A DNA stretch of 64,000 bases, taken from positions 3,752,186-3,816,185 of the forward strand of contig FN649731.1 of the NCBI GenBank assembly GCA_000310025.1. Reading direction: 5' to 3'. The stretch comes from Ectocarpus siliculosus. Taxonomy: Eukaryota > Sar > Phaeophyceae > Ectocarpales > Ectocarpaceae. A program made the translations under genes and the position numbers. Of this stretch, positions 35,107-55,543 are shown piece by piece; the first letter of the stretch is position 1; each line of letters opens with the position of its first letter. The notes beneath the pieces are model-generated. The model did not search any database. It saw only the letters and a list, made by a program, of their open reading frames with translations, and was not told where the DNA came from.

Positions 35107-38100
35107 TCACAGCTCCACGCCCTCGTCGTCGCTCACGTCCACCACCACCACGCCCGTGTCGTCGTCATCTTCGATGTCAAACACCTCCAGCAAGTTCTCG
35201 GCTTCCGAGGGCGAGTCAGCCTTGTCCGCAGCGGCCAATGGCCCGCCGATAGGCTCCCCCTGGGCGTTGGAGCCGAGCTCCTTGTTGGCCCAGGCCTCGT
35301 CTTCCGACCCGTCGAAGGGAAGGAGCAGGCCGGCCTTCCTCCAGCTCGAGCGGATTTCATCCGGGGTCAAGGCATCCCACGCCTTCTTGACCCACTGTGC
35401 GACCAACCCCCGCGAAGGGGGCTCCGGGTAGCCCCTGTCGTTGCGCGTGACGTTGTTGGAAGCCATGTGGTCGTCGTAGAGCCTGGACATGTTGGCCTTG
35501 AAGATCTTGTTGACCAGGCCATCGCACGGCTGGAGCTTTGGAGTCAGACCTCCGGGGATGTTGAACAGCGTGGTGTTGGACTCCGTCATCTTCTTGACAG
35601 ACGCGTCCTTCTTGTGGACGGTGTAGTCGTCCCACGCCAGAAGCGTGTCAGGCTGACGGTAGCCGCCGAGGCGGCCCAGCCGCCTCGGGCGCCGGTTCCA
35701 CACCTGCGGCACCCACACGTCGTCGAACACTCGTTGGGAGTGCCATCCCTTCGGGTCCACGGCGTAGACCATACCTCGGGGGTACGCGATGCCCTTCTTG
35801 TCCTTGTAGTCCTTGAACTCGCGCTCGATGCTGTTGGGGGCGGGGGACTTCCCGTTCGGAGTGGGCTGGCCCTTGAAGATGAGGAGGGGCTGGAGCTTGC
35901 TGCCGTCGGCGAACACCGTCAGGACCGAAGTGATGCGCATCTTCTCCTTGCCGCCGGTTTTGACGGCAATCTCCTTGTCGCCCACGGCCTGCGAGATTTC
36001 GTGGAGCAGCGAAAACCGACGGCAACGTGGGGTGAGTAGTCGTATCAATTTTTAAGATTCTGAGAGAGGCGTCCGTGGTCGCAAAAAATATCACCACAAG
36101 CAGAGAACAGAAAAATAAGGAAAATACGCAAACTACACTTTTTATGTAGATGGCTAATCACAAAAAAAAGGGGTAGTCCAATAGAATCGTTGACGGAGGC
36201 AAGGACAGGATTGGTACATCCAACGTAGTACGAGCGAAAACTAGGGCAAAACAAATACTCACGTTCACGGTGTTTTTCCCCGGGCTCTCGAACCACGTAG
36301 GGGTTTCATCCATGTTGCCGATCTGCGCCAAGGCGAACTTGAGACGCGGCCCCGAAGGAACTCCAGCGCCACTCCCACCCCCACCGCCGCTTGCGCTGCC
36401 TCCCGCCCCTGCCGCAACCCCCAGGCATTCGACCCCGTCCGCAAGTTCGAGCGCAGAAGGCACGTCGTATTTCAGCCTCCTCCACTCCTTGATCGACTGC
36501 ATGGCGATCAAGGGCCAGCCGGACGGAAGCTTCTGGCCTTGCCGGGTGACAGCTCGCACAGAAAAGCGGTAGACCCTGAGAAACCTTCTGCACCACTGGT
36601 TCTGCCTGTTCTTGTACTTGAGGCAGCCCTGGAGGTCGGATGGCGCCGGCCTCTCCCCGAAGAAGTTCGGGTTGAGTTCGATGGCCTTGTTCTTGATCAT
36701 ATTCGTCGAAACGCGGGCGGAGATGCCGTCAGAACGCAGCTCATTGATCCAGTCCACGACCTCACGCTCGGCCGCCGTGTGCGTCCTGGCCCGTCCGACG
36801 TTCAGCGACATGCGGTTCTTGGTTTTCTTCTTGCGCTTGGCTCCTCCCTTGTACGTTTCCGCTTCCGCAAGCGCGGCTTCGTACTTGCCGACCTTCTTGA
36901 CCCACTCCGCCAACGTCGCCTTGTCGGGAATGTTGAGGATCCTGCTGGCGTAGGTTATCCCAACAGTCCCGTTCGGCCCTCGCGCCCCCTTGATCCTTCT
37001 CTGTGAGTACCTCACCGCGTCCACCTTGAACTGCAGAGGATAGCGCTTCCTTTGGCTTCCACCACCAAGCTCGGGGATCGGGAAGTTCGGCGGCTCCAAC
37101 TCCAGCTGCCCTTTCTTCCTCTTGCCCTTGTTCTGTGCCGGTGTATCGAAGAGAACGCCGCCCAACCCATCTCCCCATTCTGTCTCTCCGGGAAACATCA
37201 TGTCGCCGGATGCACCATCGTTGGCCACCGGCGCTCCTCCCGCTGCCGGCGTTGCTGCTGCCTTTGCTCCTTCTCCTTCTGGTGCTGGCGCCGGTGCTGG
37301 AGCGGGCGCCGTTGCTGGAGCTGGCGCCGGTGTTGGAGCTGGCGCCGGTGTTGGAGCGGGCGCCGATGCTGGAGCGGGCCCCGGTGCTGGAGCGGGCGCC
37401 GTTGCTGGGGCTGGCGCCGATGCTGGAGCAGGCCCCGGTGCTGGAGCGGGCGCCGATGCTGGAGCTGGCGCCGGTGCTGGAGCTGGCGCCGGTGCTGGGG
37501 CTCCGCTCACCCTAGAGAAGACAAACGGAAAAAATCATGTGCGGGATGGCACGAAGCGGTCAATGTTGGGACGCACCGAAACATGTGTGGGCAGAAACAT
37601 AGAGGGGTGAAAAAAAAATGTGCAAAGCAGGCACCATTGAATTTCCTGTGTGGTATGGATGACAGCTGCAACACAAGCTGCTGCCTTTCCGCGACACACA
37701 CCGCCATGCAGGAAAAAAACTCACACAAAATACAACTGAAAATGTATACAATGCCGCGAACGTATGGCTAAAACTATACTCCGTACAAGTACTACACGCG
37801 TCACAAGTCACAACACGGGCACATAAATTAACACAAACATTTACCGGGGACGTGTGGGGGAAAGCTACGCGCATGCACCCAAAAAATATCTTGCAAAAAA
37901 TGTGGGGTGCAAACAAAAAAACACCTATTTAGGTAAATTACACAGGCCTACCACAGAACAGTTTACAAATTAATTTACAAAATGTATACTTGTACCGAAC
38001 GTGTGGCGGGCGCCATTTTTTTTTTGAAAAAATGTGAAAAAATTACACGAACCCTGGAGTGTGCGGGTGGCGTAAAAGCCAAGCCCACTGCACGCTTCGA

Positions 38101-38608: not shown

Positions 38609-38904
38609 CTGTTAGTGACTCTTTAGGACTAACCGATGTTGCACTTTGCAAGGCTAGGTTCCTCACGCGAGCAAGGCTAGGTTCCTCACCCCACATCTAC
38701 CCTAACCCTAACCCTAACCCTAACCCTAACCCTCACCCACGGCCAAAGCACGGCCTAGCGGCCGCGAACTGGTCGAGAACGCGGCGCAGCCGCGTTCTCG
38801 GAATGCGGAACGGCGAGAGGGCGCTGGAGAGGGTCAAGGCTAGGAACCAACGCCGGACCAATCAGAGGGCGTAAAAGCCGTTAGATAGGAAGAGTCACTA
38901 ACAG
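38609..38904. mobile_element. 296 bp nested TIR element carrying telomere-type repeats
   Basis: The 15-base inverted ends CTGTTAGTGACTCTT are perfect and flanked by ACT on both sides (38606-38608, 38905-38907). The 26 kb derivative of the host transposon lacks this block at the corresponding point, which supports an insertion. Inside are a direct repeat of GCAAGGCTAGGTTCCTCAC and about 34 bases of CCCTAA repeats (38699-38732). A 3 bp duplication hints at PIF/Harbinger-like mobilisation, but the superfamily is not certain. Confidence 0.75.
38699..38732. repeat. Interstitial (CCCTAA)n tract
   Basis: Five to six tandem CCCTAA units, the complement of TTAGGG, lie inside the nested TIR element. 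Confidence 0.95.
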
Positions 38905-44974: not shown

Positions 44975-45005
<31 letters not shown>

Positions 45006-48000
45006 TTTTCAAAAANNNNNNNNNNNNNNNNNNNNNNNNNNNNNNNNNNNNNNNNNNNNNNNNNNNNNNNNNNNNNNNNNNNNNNNNNNNNNNNNNNNNN
45101 NNNNNNNNNNNNNNNCTTCTTTTTTTTTTTAGACAATTTCCTGGGGGGTCACAGGGGGGGGGGGGGGGCCCCCCGGTCCCCCCAAAAAAAGGGGCGGGGG
45201 GGGGGGCCCGGGGGGTTTTTTTTTTTCCTTTTTTTCCCTTAAAAAAGGGGGGGGCCGGGGGTTTTAAAATTTTTTTGGGGGGGGCCCCCCCATTCCCCCG
45301 GGAAATGGGGAAATTTGCCAAACGCCGGCGCGGGCCCCCCCCCCTCCCTTGGGGGGGGGAATTTTTTTTTTTTTTAGAGGGAAAATCCAAGGGGTTTTGG
45401 GGGGAAATTCCGGGGGCCCTTCCCCCGGGGTTTTTTTTTTCCCCCGGGGGGGGGTTCCCCCGGGGGGGGGGGGGGGCTTCCGGGGGGGGGGCCGGCCCCG
45501 GGTTTTAAAATTTTTCCCCCCTTTTTTTTTGGTTTTGGAAACCCCAAAACCGGGGGGCCCCCCCCCCCCCCCCCCCCCCCCGTGAGGCGATTTCCAATAA
45601 TTGCGGCATAGTTGCCTTAGACCAAGTGGGGAGCTCATACGCACCCCCGTCCCTTGAACATCGACCTCAACTACAGGGCCTTCAAGGTGATGTGCGACGA
45701 CTTGGAGCTGGGCCTTCGAGAGTGTGCCGCCAAGGTGGTCGAAGAGCCCTTCGAGCAGGCGGCCCGTCCCGCCGACGCCTTCCGGCTGGGAAACCACCCG
45801 GCCTTTCGCGGGATAGGCGGCACCGGCGCCGGCGGGGCCGGGGAAGACGGGGACTACAACGAGGCAGCGGGGATAGCGGAGGCCGAGGCTGCGGAGGTCG
45901 CCCGGCGAGAGCAAGAAGCGCTCATCGTCAAGGTGTGCAATATTCACCAACTCAGTTACCCACACCCTCTCGTTCGGACCCGCGTACCGGGGCGTGTGCA
46001 TGAAACTGTTGGTAGAGAGTATCTGCTGTACTACCCATGTTCCGTCTCGAAAGAGTTTTGTGGTCACCTGCTGTTGACCGACGAAGGAAAGCGACACGAA
46101 GAAGTATGCCCCCCCTCCCCCCCCTCTCCCTTCGATCAATCATCTCAATTCACCCATCCGCGTGGCCCCAAAACTCATCAACCACAATCCCAATGCCTTT
46201 CTTACTCCCTTGCAATAATGTATGTCCTCTGGCCGCCACTCAATACATACATGACGCCGTAATTTGCCACGTAAGGACTAAGCGCGGTTCCCCCACCACC
46301 TCCGTTTTTTCCCCTCTCGTCATGTATGACGCCGACATGCCAGGACAACGCACGGTTCCCACACAACCTCATCACGGCCAAGCGGAAGAACCGGCGCACC
46401 CAAGGTTCCGCCGCGCCCCCCGCTCCCGACGTCAACGATGAGGGCGCCTTCCCGGACATCAACTTCGCCTCCAGCGCCGCCGTGCAGCAGCAGTCCAGGA
46501 GGGCGGCAAAGGGGGGAGGGCGCAGCTGGGGGTGGGGGGGGTCAGGTACCACCGGGCCCTTCCCAAGGAGGCGGGCGGGCTGATGGGGGGGGGGGGGAGC
46601 ACCCCGGGGGGGGGAGCGATGAGGGTGGTTGGGATGGACAGGGGCGCATCGAGGAGGCTCAGATTGTTAGTGGAAGGTGAGAGGAGGACGGGCGTGCAGG
46701 CGGGTGTGGGGGTGTGTGGGGGGGTGTACTCATAGTCGTGCATGCCGTAGTCGTTAGACCATTGACCTCGCATCCCTACAAAGCCGGGACGGAGCACGCC
46801 GGGTTCTCACCGGACCATGCTCTCACATCACCAAGCGCGAAGCACCGTGAGGTATTCGGCGAGTCGCATGAAGGGTGAGCTGCATCCTGCTAAGGGTGTT
46901 CGGCATCTTGTGCTTACTTCCTTGCGTACGGATGGCAGCTGCGTATTACTTAATTTATTTTCTGGTGCTTTCACTTCCAGAGACAGTTGTAAGCACTGTG
47001 TAACTGCCTCGAGGGTGCTTGACCAATTTAACACGACGTGGTGCGATCATCCCCCTTGCGCGGAGTGAGGTTTCTCCACCCGCTCAACATGATCTACTCG
47101 ACCACCATTATGGTTACCGCCAAAAAAAAAAACAGAGGTAAAAAAAACGTGAACCTGGTTGCCGAGTTCACGAAGTGAATTGGTTTTTTTTACAACGTCG
47201 TTGCCAAGGGAGGAAAACCCAATCCCGATGGCAAACACCGGGAGTGTGTGGGGGGGGGGGGGGGGTATGTTGTTGTTCTTCCAAGGCTGCTAGACTGATG
47301 GCATGTATCACCAGGGCAGTTAGTTTGATGTGCTCATGTGTGATTGTTGACATTTTTTGCTGGCCGTCCTACCGCAAAGCTTGACCTAACCTGGCTGGCG
47401 TGTGTGGTGTTCACTTCTCGAGTCTTTTTTCGCCGGGGGGCAGCTGAGACTTGTCTATTTTTATTCTATATATTTGTTATCGTATTGGCCGGGTTCCGTG
47501 GACACGTTCCTTGTGCTACATCCGTTTCTGAAGGCACTGCTTGCGAATACTTGCGTTGCTCGGTTTTTGCCCCCTCTTCTTTCGCTGCCGCTTTTTGCCG
47601 CCATTAGCCGTCAGCATGTTGAGCAACATGTTCCTCTGTTACCAAGTGACCACCGCCACCATTGCCCCCTCCTTTCGTACCCATCGTCATCATTCATGTT
47701 TCTCCTGTTGTGTTTGCCGCTGTATTCCACGCGCTTCTCCTGCACCAGAGGCGTATGCCGGAAGCTCGGGCAGGGAGAGGTGGGCTACGTGGCCACCACC
47801 CACACCATGTCAGGCGTTTACCGGAAGTGGGACTGTCAGAGGCGGAATCCCGTGGATACCACGTGGAAAACCACCCCGAAGAACAAAGAAATGGATGAAG
47901 ATTTAACCAACCGGGTCGTTCCAGGGGCGTCCAAAGGGCAGGTATTTACGACTTCTACGATCGCGTCTGTTCCAACGATATGAATACTGTGAAAAAACGT

Positions 48001-51000
48001 TCGTTTTTGCAAGCGAAACACGCTTTTGTAAAAATCGCTTTTATAACACGCTTTTCTTTTGTGAAACAAAAGGCATCGGCTCTTCAGGAAATAGAAATTG
48101 AGGGATTCTACTTCACGAAATGTTAATGTTGGAAGTTGAACCCCAACCATCCTATACCTATGTTCGAGCATTCCTACACTAAAAAGTGGTCGCGGATTCT
48201 GTTGCCTGCTTGCAATCCCGGCACGATCATCCTTGTTGTTTTGCCAAGCTGTTTTGCTGCCGTTTCAGAAATATCTTATGCGCTCTCTTGAAGTTGACTC
48301 CGACCCTGGGTAGGCCAGGGTCGGGTAGGTCACTAAAGGGGCCCCTTGTCCGCATCGTCTCCTGCTGCACTTCCTCCTTAGTCTACAAGCGTACTTGGTG
48401 TCCACTACTGTTTTCCCCAAAAGCCCTCGTAATTTCCTTCCCTCCCAACAAAAAAAAAAAAATACGTTAATAATTAAATAACATCATACGCACCACACCG
48501 ATATTGCTTCCGATATGGTATGACGCAACGCAGGTTCCCTGCTGCTCACATTCTGTCGTTCGTCCACGCTCAAGTCAACGAATGACTAGACCGATAAAGT
48601 TTTATTTAAAGTAGAAGACAAAAGAACACCTTCTGTTTGTTCATTTCTAACCCCTATTTTAAGCCCGCCTCTTTCAACTTGAACTTTTTCAGGTGGCTTT
48701 CCAAGCTCGAGGTTTGGAACTAAACTCGAACAAGGCATCGGCGCGCGCGAAGCCCCGCGGCCGTCGCAAGGCCGGGGGTGGCGGCGGCGGCGGGCTGAGG
48801 ACTGTTAAGGAGGAAAAGGAGGAGGCGTGGGAAGCGGCCTCTCGGAAGAGACGGGGGCAGAAGGAGACGAGGGTTGCGCCGCATTCGTACGTGGTGAGTA
48901 CAGAAAAAAACAATGGTCGGGCCGCACTCATACTTGGTGAGTACAGAAGGAATCATGGGTTGGGCCGCACTCATACTTGGTGAGTACAGAAGGAAACATG
49001 GGTAGGACCGCACTCGTACGTGGTGAGTACAGAAGGAAACGAGGGTTGCGCCGCAGTCGTACGTGCTGAGTACGGCATTGCTCGGGCTGGATCTCTTTGC
49101 GTGATGGCTTAAAACAGTCTCAAACATGTTCGAGATACAGCCGTGATCCCTCAACTGTACCTGAAAAAAAACTTGAATACATGCCTGCGAACGGGGTACT
49201 ACGTCGAACGGGTAAGTAGTCTTTCTACCATTTTCGAAGGAGGAACCAAGGGCTGCGTCGCACTCATATGTGGCAAGTGTGTGCCTGGTTCTTGAGTAAG
49301 GCACACGTATACCTAAAGGTGGGTATCCCCCAACATGGTAGTCCATTTTATTGGCCTTTGTGTTTCGCTGTTGTGGATCTAGTGCTGCTATGTACATGTC
49401 TTTCTAACAGGCAAATATTCTCATGAAAAGAAAGACTGCCCGTTGAAGATGATACCCCGTTCGGAGCGATGTGTTGGGAGTCTTGACGGGATGTGACCGG
49501 GCCTATTTTGTTTGTTTTTCAACAAAAAAACTGCCTGTGTTGCTTCTCTGTCGTTTGTTTTGCATCAACAACACTGCCTGTGTTGTTTTCTCTGCTTTTT
49601 TTTTCGTGCTTTTTCAGGTGAGAAAAACAGCTGCGGCGCCGTTCTGGCTGTCGCCCGGGGTGCAATTCGGCCGTTCTAATTGCAGAGGCTGGTTTCCCAC
49701 CCGCCAGGACTGGTCCGCTCGCGGCATCCCGCAGTGCATCTATGTTCCTCTTGAGGTAAGCTCGGAGCTTTGGCCTGTTGCTGTTGCTGATGATATCGTG
49801 GCTGGCGTTGTTGTTTTGGTGGTGGTGGTGGTGGTCGTGGTGGTCGTGGTGGTGCCGGCAGCACGAGCTTGATCTTCATGTTTTGTGGGTTGCTTTTGGG
49901 TAGGGCGGCCGCTGCTGTTCCTGTTGCCGTTGTTGTGTTTTTTTATGAAGATGGGGGTGGTTGTGGTGATGGTGATGCTCCCGCCATCTCGATCTCCGTG
50001 TGTTGCGGGATTGCTTTCGGAGTAGGGACGTACCGCTGCTGCCAAGCACCGTTCGTTGCGTTGTTTCTGAGCAGTACGCGCACCCCCACGTGTTGTGGAA
50101 CCCCAGCTCACCTCGCCCTGCTGGTCTCCCAAGCACACACAAAATTTCGCCGACGGAGACCCAGGGTGCGTTTTCGCCTCTACCGCCGCATGGCAGATGA
50201 AGTGCTGTAATATTACTGCTGGCTTTTCGTTGTTTATTCGGATGCACACCGACCCCTCGTCGTCTCTAGACCAGCTCTGATCGCTGATGCCACTGCTGTG
50301 CGCTCCCAGAACATAACGTTTTTAGTCTTGGACTAGAATGCCACGAACGAGATGTATGTGTTTGTTTGGGTGGTGGAACAGCTGCACAGCAGTCAATCTA
50401 ACGTGCGTGGTCTTTCTGCTGTGCGTTTGCGAGCACGAAGATGGGTTTCATCTGTTGGTGATTGAGCAAGTCGAATCGGCTTTCTATTTCGTGTTTGCAT
50501 CAATTCTGTGTACCGTGTGCAATAAAACCGTCCTGCAGCATTCGATGTAGAAGATGTGTTAAAGTAGCGATCGAATAAGGTACACGGGCTTTCAAATTTT
50601 TGCGTTTGCATCAAACTTGTGTATGATACATGCCATCGAAAACGTACGGCCGTGCTACAGCCTTCGACCGAAGATCGAGTCGAAGCGATGCGGTTGGGGC
50701 ACGAGCGCGTGGTCGGGTTGACCTTAGAGGAGGACGAAGAACGCCTCATGAGGATTGCCATCAGGGAGTCTGCCGCGGAGTCTAGACGAGGTACCATGTC
50801 TATTTTACACTTTGTACTACATGTGTTGATAGATAGGTAAAAGGTTGTGGTCTAGACGAGGTAACATGCCTATTTGATCATTTCTACTATGTTTTGATGG
50901 GATGAAGGTTGTGGTCTAAACGAGGCACCATGTCTATTTTATCGTCTCTACTACATGATTGCAGGGTGAGGTTCATTGTGTGATAGCAACTGGAACAACG

Positions 51001-53075
51001 ACCTACGTTGTGTTTTTTCACTAGCGCTCGCTGTTCTCCTTCCATGTGTGTCTTTGGAAACCGAAATCGTGGATTACTAGTGAAGTGGTTTGATGTGGGC
51101 TTATGAATGTCACAACAGCTTGTGAAAGCGCGGACTAAGTCTATCGGTTTGATCTTGCTCGTGTTGTAATGGCACAACAGTTTACGACAGCGCACACTAG
51201 CCTATTGGCTTGATCGCAGCTCCCATTGCAAACGTCACAACAGCTTACGAAAAGAAGTACGGTACGGAGGCCGAACGCGAGAAGAGGCGGGAGGCTCAGG
51301 CCAAGGCGAAGGTCAAGGCGATGGCGGAGCGCGAGAGCCTGCAGCGCGACGAGGAGAAGCAGCTCATGGAGGTCATCAAGGCTTCCCTTGTAGAGGTGCG
51401 GCGGGTTCATCGTCGCGTTGTCGCCCGCTCGCCTGTGTGCTCTGCCCGGGGGCGGGCGTGTCGATGCCGTAGGAATGTGATGCCCGATACCTGTGCAGGA
51501 GTGCTGTAGGCGCCCCGCCGTGCTGTAGAGGGGGTCCCGTGGATTGCCCCGCTGTGGAGGGGTGGTCCGTCGTGGAGGGGGTTTCGTGAATTGCCCGCAT
51601 GCACAGTGGCATCCTATGCAAGCTACGGTACACGAGCATAACGGCCCGATTTGAGGGTTCCGGCCATTCTTGTTGCGGTACCGCTGTGCTTGGTTTGTGG
51701 GATCGCGCGTGAAATTGCCCGTGGAAGCTGCTGTCACTGCGCCTGTGTTGCTAAACTATTAGCGGTGTTTGTTGCCGTCTCTGTCACGACTGTTTAGTTG
51801 AAGCACTTTCGTCTTCACAATATACGTACTGCTGTGCGTACAACACGAAGTTGTCTTTTTTTTCGCAAGGCAACGAAAGAGTAGATCTCCTTGTATCCAA
51901 GCAACATTTTGTTGCTGTCGTTGGGTGGTCGCAGTCGTTGGGCGCTGGCGAGAAGGACGATCGTGACGTCATCGCCGCCCTCGAAGCCTCCAAGAGGGAT
52001 AGCGAAAACAACGCCAGGGAAGAGGGAGAGGATCCGCACGTGTTGAAGGTCATGGCCGAGTCTAGGTGGGTAGGTTTTGAAGCTTTAGATGGAAGGGGTT
52101 CTGGGCCAGTTGATGGATGTACCACCTCCGGTGTCGGTGCCGCGCGCGGAGAGATAAGAGATCTCCCATCCGCTTTGCTGCCCACCACCGGCGGCAATGC
52201 GCCATCGTGACCAACGGACAAAGAATAAAAAAACAATCTCTTATTCCTAACCTGCCACTTATGGCACGTGTGGCCCATCTCCCCGTGTGTTTATTTTTTC
52301 TATTTTCCTTGTTTTCGTTCGCGCACGAGGCGGCGCTGGGCGATATCTACATGGTAGTACCGCCGTCATTGGGTTTCCAAGTTTTAATAGTCTTCTGGAG
52401 GCAATTCTTCTTTGGTTTCGGCACCCACGCCTGCTGTCGGGCATTTACGTTTCATCCTTTCCCTCATTGCGAACCCCTCACCCCCCCCCCCCCCCGCGGG
52501 GCTTCCCCTTTCCGGAGGGAACACCAAACGATGCCAGAACTGCGGGGAATTTACGGGGACCTGTCTAATGTTTGGGCCCAATTTCCAAACGCAACGGAAA
52601 ACAATACCAAAACAATTTGGTAACCCAGAAAACAGGGCAATCACCACCCCCCTCCCAACCAAACCCCGGGGGCACCCCCTGTAATAAAAAAACAATCTGT
52701 TTCCAACACGATATCCGCAGCGCCCCCGCCTCCACCCCCGCCTCCACCCCCGCCGCCGCCACCGACTGCTGTACCGATGGCACCGGATTGGCTAGTGTCG
52801 GAGTTGCCCGTGCCGGCTCCGGCCGGCGCAGGAGGGTTCGTGCAAGCTCCGCGGAAGGGGTACCAAGGGCAAGCATATTCTGCTGGGATGGATCGAGGGC
52901 ATGCTGCAATGCCGCCAACACCACGTCCCCCCCCGCCGCCGCCGCCGCCACCACCACCACCGCCAACACCGCCCGTGTATGCGCCGCACGCCACCGGCGG
53001 CGGCGGCGGAGGCGTCCATATGGGGACTACCCACCCCGGTCTTGAACCGACGATGGCGCAACACGCCTACAGCGT

Positions 53076-53114
<39 letters not shown>

Positions 53115-55543
53115 GATGAGGATACCAGCCAGGTTCGACGACGGCAACGTGGGCGTGCCTCCACCCCCACCCCCGCCCGTGCCGGTTGGCGTGCCCCCCT
53201 CGCCCTCGGTCCAGGGGCCACCCGCGCCGCCGCCGCCGCCAACTCTGGACCACCGGACGGAAGCGACGCCGGGCGCCTTGACTGGGCGGCAGCCCGCCTC
53301 CTCGCAACAGGCGATTCTCCACCATGGCACCCCTCCGCTTACCGCCCAACAGCAGCCATGGCCAGAGGGTGGCGGCGCAAAGCTAAGCGGGCACACGATG
53401 ATGAATGGAGCACCGCCTCCACCCGACGACAATGAGCGGGACGGCTTGGCTGCTGCGGGGGGGGCGGCGCAGTTGGCCGGGTGGGCAGTGCGCGGTTCTG
53501 CCACCTGCGGAGCCCCGGGGGGGGGCGGCGTGTTGCCGCCGGCGCCGCCTGTCCAGAAAGCGGCGTGGGGTGCGGCGGGGCAGGCGAGCGACGGACTGTC
53601 GGCGGAAGAGCGGGAACTGAAGGCCGTGCTTGAGGCGTCAAGGATAGCGGAAGAGACCAGGCAGCGGGAGGACGCGGAATCCAAGATAGCCATGGATGTG
53701 AGCTCGGGTCCGTTTTTTATCTGTAGTTGTTTTTTTGGACGAGGCACATGTGTTAGCCTAGGCTAGTCTTTGTTGCATTTTGACTGTTAGTACAATGTGT
53801 CTGGCTGTCATCTGTACAGGCCTTCGAAGGTTAAGGGATTCACGGACGGGCGACCTCGATAAAGTCGTGTGTTTGCCCCCCTTTTGACCACGCGCCGCCC
53901 TTGCTTGCAGTGCCCCTCCCTCTCAGGTTCGCTTCCTCGGTGTCGCTCAGACGCATTCATGTACACAGCGGAAGTGCTGATTAGATAACACGCCTCCCTG
54001 TATGTGAAACCTGCCTGTGAAGTAAACTCCCGCCCGATCCCACCCCTGGTCCCGCACTGTCGCAGATGGCCTTGAAAATGTCCATGATGGAGACACCAGC
54101 AGCCCCTTCCAGCGGAGAGCGTTACGGGCACGGTCGCGGCAATTACTACCAACAACCGGCGGCTACGACGGGCTACCCTGCCCAGCCGCCCCCCTTGTCA
54201 ACGTCAGCAACGGCTAACGGGTTTCGACCTAAAGGAGGCGGGTGGCAAGGACAGCAACAGCCCCCCCGCCCAGCCCCGAATGCGGGCTACTCTCCCATGG
54301 CCACAGCAGCAGCAGCAGCCCCGCCGCCGGTGGCGTCGACCGCGGTGTCGCCAAGGGCCCCGGGAGCGTACTCGGCGGCAGGCCGGCCGCTCTCGCCGCG
54401 GCAGCAGGGGGCCCCGTCGCAAGTGGTACCCACCCGGCCGCCGCCGGCGGATGGAAGTGTGGGGGGCGGTGGCGGGGAGAGCGCGGAGGGGGACGAAGAA
54501 GAGGATGGGGCTGCGCGGGAGCTGCGAATCGCCCTGGAGGAGGAGGAGCAGTACTACGGGGCCAAGGACGCGGCCGGGGCGGGAGGGCAGTCGCCGCCTT
54601 CGAAGGCTGGCGCGAGCACCGGAGGAGGCAGGCAGCAGGAGGACGAGCTGGCTTGGGTGCTGGAGCAGTCGCGGCTGGAGGCGGAGATTCAGAAGTCTCG
54701 GATGGCGATCGCCGAGGAGGGGGAGGAGGAGATGATGGCCAAGGTGCTGGAGGAGTCGCGGCTGGAGCAGGAGAAGAGGAACGCCGAGCAGCTGGAGTTC
54801 CAGAGGGTAAGCCCAGCGCGCGGTGTTGTACCGTAGTAGCCTTTGACGTTTCCTGCAGACGTTTGCGTGGACGATGGCATTTGTTGCCGAGAGCTTTGGA
54901 GTCGTGCTCGCACAGAACGTGAGGAGAGGGATTGGGGAAATGATAAAGCGTCCTTTCATGAAGTAGAGGTCCCTATTCAGTGCCGTTTGAATAGTGCCGG
55001 TGATTTCTGGCACTAAACAGGGAACTTCCGCTTTATACAGTTTTTTAGCCAAGTAGACACGTGTCTAATGTGTACAAGGCTTGCATATCGGTGCTGTTAT
55101 AGTTCTAATGGTATGTTGTCGTGCCTCATGTATGCTCTCACCGATACGTGTGTCGAGAGAGGCTTTTGTGGTGCAGATGTGCACGCTGGATGCCGCGAAG
55201 GAAGGACGAAGAATCCTGTCTACCGGACCTTCTTGTTTTTGGTGTTTCGCCGCCTATCGGTTGCGTGTTGCGTGCTGTTGGAACACACCCACCGACGTGT
55301 TGGGCGGCTCAGGGAGCGTTCCTCGCTTCTCCGGCTGCGGCCGCGGCCCATGTGGGGCTGTTTTGTCAGCTCGACGACGTCCAGTCTGCAAGCATGGGCA
55401 AGAACTCTCCACGACTCCTCTCCTTGAGTCATCTCGTCTCGCCCCGTCATCTCGTCTTGCCCGAAAGCTCACACGCACGCACGTCTTCTCTTTTTTGGCC
55501 GCGTGCGGGTTTCCAGGCTATGCAGGCGTCCCTCGGTTCGTGA
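41062..55543 (+). CDS. Large protein with HEPN-like helical segment and multi-UIM C-terminus
   Basis: Proposed exons: 41062-42970, 43548-43713, 45677-45932, 46344-46531, 47749-47941, 48693-48893, 49618-49755, 50661-50790, 51220-51395, 51935-52065, about 52721-53697, 54066-54806, 55517-55543. Phases agree at every junction except 52065/52721, where the sequence is poor. The N-terminal about 600 residues are low complexity (Ala, Pro, Gln, His). The 42970/43548/45677 exons encode a helical segment containing MRNKLVH, an R-N-x3-H motif as in HEPN domains. The middle exons (47749-49755) encode conserved-looking but unrecognised sequence. From 50661 on come UIM-like helices: ERLMRIAIRES, KQLMEVIKASL, DVIAALEASK, ELKAVLEASR, IAMDMALKMS, ELAWVLEQSR, MMAKVLEESR and LEFQRAMQASL. 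They are separated by Pro/Gln-rich linkers. A role in ubiquitin recognition is inferred. Exon 46344-46531 to 47749 is the least certain join. Confidence 0.65.
44279..44611. mobile_element. Foldback (long inverted-repeat) element in an intron of the UIM gene
   Basis: Two arms of about 150 bases are imperfect complements, starting TTTGATTGGTGACACGTGAG on each side and including TTTGTCGCTGGCACCATGG, with a short centre near 44440-44460. There is no coding capacity and no clear target duplication. It could fold into a long hairpin in the pre-mRNA. Confidence 0.8.
45016..45115. other. 100-N assembly gap
   Basis: Exactly 100 N in the intron between the second and third exons of the UIM gene. Confidence 0.99.
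45116..45582. other. Low-quality homopolymer-rich sequence after gap
   Basis: Runs of G, C, T and A with almost no other structure, as at 3601-3958. Long Pro/Gly/Phe frames here are artefacts. Confidence 0.75.
48867..49081. repeat. 43 bp minisatellite across the donor of exon 48693-48893
   Basis: Five units with an exact 43 base period. The GGTGAG (or GCTGAG) core starts at 48893, 48936, 48979, 49022 and 49065. Each unit contains the exon end (CCGCACTC.TAC.TG) and the splice donor GTGAGTACAG; only the last has lost GT. One further decayed unit may lie near 49250. Confidence 0.9.
50781..50965. repeat. 64-70 bp tandem repeat across the donor of exon 50661-50790
   Basis: Three units start with TCTAGACGAGGTACCATG, TCTAGACGAGGTAACATG and TCTAAACGAGGCACCATG at 50781, 50851 and 50915. 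The first two keep the GT donor and the third has GC. Confidence 0.9.
51070..51255. repeat. 62-63 bp tandem repeat across the acceptor of exon 51220-51395
   Basis: Three units are anchored on CACAACAG at 51111, 51173 and 51236. The third contains the acceptor (GATCGCAG) and the first codons of the exon; the corresponding AG is missing from the first two. Confidence 0.85.
52470..52720. other. Poor-quality stretch before the proline-rich exon
   Basis: A C run followed by sequence with read-end-like character, which coincides with the only phase mismatch of the UIM gene. The exon start at 52721 is therefore provisional. Confidence 0.5.
53071..53114 (+). repeat. CAG repeat encoding polyglutamine
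   Basis: About 14 CAG codons give a Gln run within the Pro/Gly-rich exon of the UIM gene. CAG/CTG runs recur elsewhere in the gene and in copy 3. Confidence 0.95.
54963..55028. mobile_element. Very short palindromic MITE-like sequence in the last intron of the UIM gene
   Basis: About 20-base imperfect inverted ends (AGGTCCCTATTCAGTGCC versus AAGTTCCCTGTTTAGTGCC) enclose a core that includes AATAGTGCCGG, a motif also used in the subterminal repeats of 30496-31956. Confidence 0.5.

Follow-up and report, generated by a model that had tools for sequence, protein, structure and literature searches.

Minisatellites spanning predicted exon-intron junctions of one Ectocarpus siliculosus gene probably arose by local tandem duplication

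Introduction

By its title, a 1995 report describes an interferon-induced transcript for which a minisatellite supplies several splice donors. In the potato RdRp gene, a tandem genomic duplication that crosses an intron-exon boundary made a new intron (PMC4974935). Two further papers describe minisatellites, with units of 30 bp on average, that alter exons and introns of human duplicated genes (PMC2812944) and a minisatellite linked to alternative splicing regions in worms (PMC4039745). A limited literature search found no genome-wide survey of minisatellites that span splice junctions.

The window analysed here is a stretch of 64,000 nucleotides of the Ectocarpus siliculosus genome (GCA_000310025.1, contig FN649731.1, positions 3,752,186 to 3,816,185 of the forward strand). 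A sequence-only reading of this DNA had pointed to minisatellites lying on splice sites in three introns of one gene, and had taken three such cases in one gene as a sign of a special mechanism or of selection. Multiple-donor minisatellites are already known, and the present case is a sound observation with an ordinary best explanation: at a probability of roughly 0.76, local tandem duplications crossed the exon-intron junctions, the exon-proximal site is the one used, and the extra copies became intron and decay. The order of events, the site used and the neutrality of the extra copies are what we infer from the DNA.

Results

Gene model of the host gene

Genes were predicted with a hidden-Markov gene finder self-trained on 254 kb, consisting of the window and 19 random 10-kb stretches (20 were drawn, and L006 was dropped because it was all N). 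Across this sample the trained finder called 214 exons with a median length of 149, and the median intron was 561 bp. Since the training set included the window, the model of the host gene is not independent of it; the exons called there match a hand reading by frame, and exon 48693-48893 has a coding log-odds of 0.093 per base, as against a 95th percentile of -0.011 for random introns. Open frames result both when 48693-48893 is joined to 49618-49755 and when 50661-50790 is joined to 51244-51395. The gene model has two introns with junction-spanning arrays, 48894-49617 and 50791-51243, and not the three that had been read, because arrays 2 and 3 flank one and the same intron (Table 1).

A Pfam search with the host gene returned nothing above cut-off. 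Two exons carry stretches that resemble the UIM consensus by eye; the UIM_2 profile gave 10.4 bits, against a cut-off of 21, in one of four pieces searched.

Elsewhere in the window, positions 44975-45590 contain about 100 N between long C, G and T runs that look like poor sequence, and the exon calls there are not trustworthy. An 18-bp repeat of 12.4 copies (37279-37502) lies mostly inside a predicted exon, and a short run of the telomere-like hexamer ACCCTA is found at 38699-38738, internal to the contig.

Table 1. Arrays and predicted exons of the host gene, in window coordinates.
Feature	Position	Strand	Description
Exon	48693-48893	+	unit 1 of array 1 forms the final 36 nt; phase 0 end between GTG and GTGAGT
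Array 1	48858-49072	+	five 43-bp units, each 36 nt exon-like plus GTGAGTA; spans predicted donor 48894
Decayed sixth copy of array 1 unit	49238-49278	+	165 bp downstream, in intron 48894-49617
Second array, 2 x 43 bp	49503-49588	+	also in intron 48894-49617
Exon	49618-49755	+	open frame kept with donor 48894; array 1 unit 3 cassette also frame-neutral
Exon	50661-50790	+	gene finder; UIM-like motif by eye
Array 2	50780-50957	+	70- and 64-bp units plus partial third; spans predicted donor 50791
Array 3	51106-51262	+	three copies, 62 and 63 bp apart, around CACAACAG
Exon	51244-51395	+	UIM-like motif by eye; start may be 51220 instead

Three arrays at predicted splice sites

The three arrays described earlier, of 43 bp in five units, of 64-70 bp, and of 62-63 bp in three copies, are all present, and all consist of head-to-tail units in the minisatellite range of roughly 10-100 bp. 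Array 1 was detected with Tandem Repeats Finder and a repeat finder; arrays 2 and 3 are absent from Tandem Repeats Finder output at score 40 and were detected by the repeat finder and a lag-based detector. Repetition of this kind exceeds chance: at a detector score of at least 14, the 254-kb sample holds 194 copy pairs and first-order shuffled sequence holds 1. The sample contains 69 array clusters, 11 of which touch both exon and intron, and the abundance of such repeats fits the tandem-duplication account.

The multiplication of splice signals was also read correctly, with four intact GT donors among the five units of array 1 and two among the three of array 2. In array 1, GTGAGT stands at 48894, which is the predicted exon end, and again at 48937, 48980 and 49023, while the fifth copy is broken to CTGAGT; in array 2 the three donor places read GT, GT and GC. 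Among predicted donors, the inner ones of array 1 rank between the 69th and 88th percentile and its first one at the 88th, and the persistence of four good donors out of five counts somewhat against neutral decay. The array 2 donors are weak, at the 25th and 42nd percentile.

Array 1 units differ from one another at 3 to 10 of 43 bases, exon-like parts included, a point for the neutral account; units 1 and 5 are the closest pair (3 differences) and the remaining pairs differ at 5 to 10. The sixth copy has 76% identity to the reference copy and carries GCAAGT at the donor place, and the second 43-bp array in this intron stops 29 bp short of the predicted exon and does not span the acceptor. Each 36-nt part of the five units reads as a 12-residue peptide similar to the true exon end, and 7 of the 13 variable exon-like columns fall on third codon positions, a weak tilt; both observations speak against neutrality.

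What is repeated at the exon side of array 2 is GTCTAGACGAG, the last 11 nt of exon 50661-50790. At the other end of this intron, the last CACAACAG copy of array 3 contains the acceptor chosen by the finder (51243; exon start 51244). An alternative AG at 51218-51219 scores 1.37, compared with 1.05 for 51243, is in frame and would add 8 codons, so that 51216-51246, at the end of array 3, contains a pair of acceptors that both keep the frame and lie 24 bases apart, with the exon starting at 51220 or at 51244. The acceptor thus appears to be 51243 or 51219, with uncertainty between the two; if 51219 is used, the last CACAACAG copy would be coding, inside the exon. The earlier claim that two donors and one acceptor are overlapped therefore stands for the predicted donors 48894 and 50791 and is uncertain for the acceptor.

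Frame consequences and the preferred reading

It had been pointed out that 43 is not a multiple of 3, so that donor choice in array 1 would alter the frame, and the inner donors tested do give a frameshift or a stop. Used as exon extensions, donor 2 shifts the frame into a stop in the next exon, and donors 3 and 4 each run into a stop. Stops also follow from use of the two inner donor places of array 2 (the second and the third) and of both inner CACAACAG acceptors of array 3. From the gene model, the exon-proximal donors 48894 and 50791 and an exon-proximal acceptor are most likely the sites used. All inner copies lie inside single introns in this model, and a new intron is not evident.

Under local tandem duplication, a duplicated short segment of the intron edge would have happened to include the junction and grown into a minisatellite. 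The outer site would remain beside the coding sequence and keep working, while inner copies would be absorbed into the intron and decay, some retaining an intact, unproductive site, and each event would lengthen the intron by the added copies. Because the exon-proximal site is still usable, a duplication across the junction would be tolerated and selection need not remove it. The spare inner splice sites are thus probably harmless by-products, although the second acceptor in array 3 weighs slightly against this explanation, as do the exon calls at one further array (L038) described below.

Arrays at junctions compared with intron interiors

An alternative is that donor-like motifs are mutational hot spots that seed slippage, so that arrays would preferentially start at splice sites across the genome. 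We counted a junction as covered when an array copy has at least 5 aligned bases on either side of it. In the unbiased 254-kb sample, array copies cover 5 of 188 donors and 3 of 188 acceptors, while 4033 of 133608 intron-interior positions (3.0%) lie under such copies. There is accordingly no array excess at junctions in this sample (8/376 against 3.0%), a count in which array 3 is assumed to use acceptor 51243 and may not count with 51219. Of the five covered junctions outside the host gene, L003:3181 just reaches the score threshold, L009:1594 is in a 22-nt exon and that at window position 37491 is in a doubtful exon. With 47000-55000 of the window excluded, the interior figure is 2.8% and the covered junctions are 3 of 179 donors and 2 of 179 acceptors (5/358). 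The sample is small, and the 95% interval of 0.9-4.2% for 8/376 makes a several-fold junction excess unlikely.

Within the host gene, three of six intron arrays span a junction (P = 0.028 for random placement), and the three covered junctions out of 16 exceed background rates (P = 0.0013 to 0.0096), the latter being a point against the neutral account; both P values are post hoc, the case having been chosen because it is conspicuous.

Similar arrays elsewhere in the genome

Searching genome-wide for three GTRAGT motifs spaced by 31-61 bases gave 142 matches, compared with 430 for the reversed control pattern. As an enrichment test we set this count aside: it speaks against an excess, and it is hard to interpret because GTGA-type microsatellites are common among the matches listed. 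From about 50 distinct places among the matches listed, 34 were picked by eye for follow-up; 15 GTGA microsatellites or dispersed repeats were left out, as was array 1 itself. We sorted the 34 by eye into 20 tandem-looking and 14 irregular clusters. The first GTRAGT coincides with a predicted donor in 9 of the 20 and in 5 of the 14; in the sample, 22 of the 168 GTRAGT motifs outside low-complexity sequence are predicted donors. The difference between 9/20 and 22/168 (Fisher p = 0.0014; 6/20 and p = 0.09 under a stricter coding cut) is an imperfect comparison, because within an array the finder can choose among several good donors.

Among the nine tandem cases, coding support is weaker in L026, L030 and L033, and L028, L030 and L041 have little or no exon-side identity between copies. 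By copy alignment the exon tail lies within the repeat in L025, L026, L033, L037, L038 and L049, and less clearly in L035. In L025, for example, which has 45-bp units, 30 of 36 bases of the exon tail are shared by three copies. Little or no exon-side identity was seen in L028, L030, L041, L051, L052, L053 and L055, and of the five irregular clusters that start at a predicted donor only L049 has it clearly. Comparable donor-spanning arrays are thus found at six other predicted exon ends among the 34 places.

In L038 (1430-1602), an array of 32-bp units lies at a predicted donor. The unit resembles intron edges put together, with GTGAGT, a stretch rich in pyrimidines that ends in GCAG, and AAGATG as six exon-like bases. 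Two 6-nt exons that end at later copies are called there by the finder; no other cluster has later motifs called as donors.

The scan for arrays at exon ends therefore yielded further cases but no excess in the sample, and the idea that three cases in one gene imply a special mechanism or selection draws some support from 9/20 against 22/168 and none from 8/376 against 3.0%. The 9/20 figure favours a hot spot and weighs against the neutral account, and on this comparison arrays with intact donors may be somewhat enriched. A hot spot is nevertheless unlikely, since the junction excess is absent, 11 of the 20 clusters are not at donors, the stricter cut removes significance at p = 0.09, and array 3 involves an acceptor.

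Inner donors as decoys

A further alternative is that intact inner donors act as decoy or poison sites, competing with the true donor to give truncated transcripts that are degraded, so that the array tunes expression. The high percentiles of the array 1 inner donors would suit this, as would the stops and frameshifts produced by the inner sites tested as exon extensions. In a frame test of eight arrays, array 1 included, six have no open, frame-neutral inner donor, in line with the preferred reading. The other two go against decoys: in L026 (1487-1641) and L033 (1485-1650) the GTRAGT spacings are multiples of three and no stop precedes the last listed donor, so a switch of donor there could insert whole codons, which is not the case in the arrays of the host gene. 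These open, in-frame inner donors, with the 6-nt exons of L038, are also a difficulty for the neutral account.

The array 1 donor columns are not significantly better conserved than the others (permutation p = 0.19; hypergeometric 0.08), and purifying selection on them is not supported. This result, the broken fifth copy and the weakness of the array 2 donors make decoys an improbable explanation. RNA structure that hides the inner donors was rejected as well, as the predicted folding of array 1 RNA does not exceed that of shuffled sequence (z = +1.77). We also considered whether decoy donors are avoided close to true ones: across 179 sample introns, GTRAGT has 1 match in the +10 to +60 interval and five control motifs have 1, 1, 3, 5 and 5, and nothing follows from this, two of the five controls being equally rare.

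On a broader version, junction-spanning minisatellites would form a recurrent class that keeps intact donors as decoys or as boosters of U1 binding, with copy number as a tunable dial; we consider this, too, a long shot.

Cassette use and dispersed origin

Since the 36-nt part reads as a 12-residue peptide, a single array 1 unit spliced in could keep the frame, and a 33 to 36-nt unit (e.g. 48947-48979) might sometimes serve as a microexon adding about 12 residues. Such use is very improbable: the unit copies do read as QKETRVAPHSYV-like peptides, the 33-nt piece joins in frame and was called by the untrained finder in its first pass, and 6-nt exons at later copies are among the trained finder's calls in L038, but training made the finder drop the 33-nt piece, the intron before it would measure 53 nt, compared with the sample median of 561, and a pyrimidine tract is absent before the CAG.

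Whole-genome DNA searches (189 Mb, 492 contigs), with array 1 as one query and arrays 2 and 3 together as another, matched only each query's own place, a result that falls short of proof of uniqueness since the search skips very common words. An introner, mobile-element or dispersed-repeat origin is not supported by these self-matches, which point to local duplications and not to insertions of dispersed elements.

Discussion

If local tandem duplication across the junctions is the right reading, introns can expand outward at their edges without harm to the protein. The arrays also offer several natural loci at which to measure how serially arranged, near-identical splice sites compete, and if inner sites are used, the number of repeats would set splicing in a heritable way.

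The multiple-donor minisatellite of the Turri type reportedly belongs to human 6-16/IFI6. Arrays 1 and 2 share its structure in that they span a predicted boundary and their units carry a donor, so that here, as there, the units supply splice donors and the donor is multiplied. The two cases differ in that the extra donors serve the transcript in the 1995 example, to go by its title, whereas the inner sites tested here break the frame, and in that an acceptor region is involved here as well. As in the potato RdRp case (PMC4974935), a tandem duplication across a junction copies the splice signals; in that gene a new intron resulted, whereas here the inner copies lie inside one intron and a new intron is not evident. 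The human duplicated genes (PMC2812944) resemble the present gene in having minisatellites at exons and introns, and they were studied by comparing paralogs with transcripts, whereas the arrays described here were read from DNA sequence.
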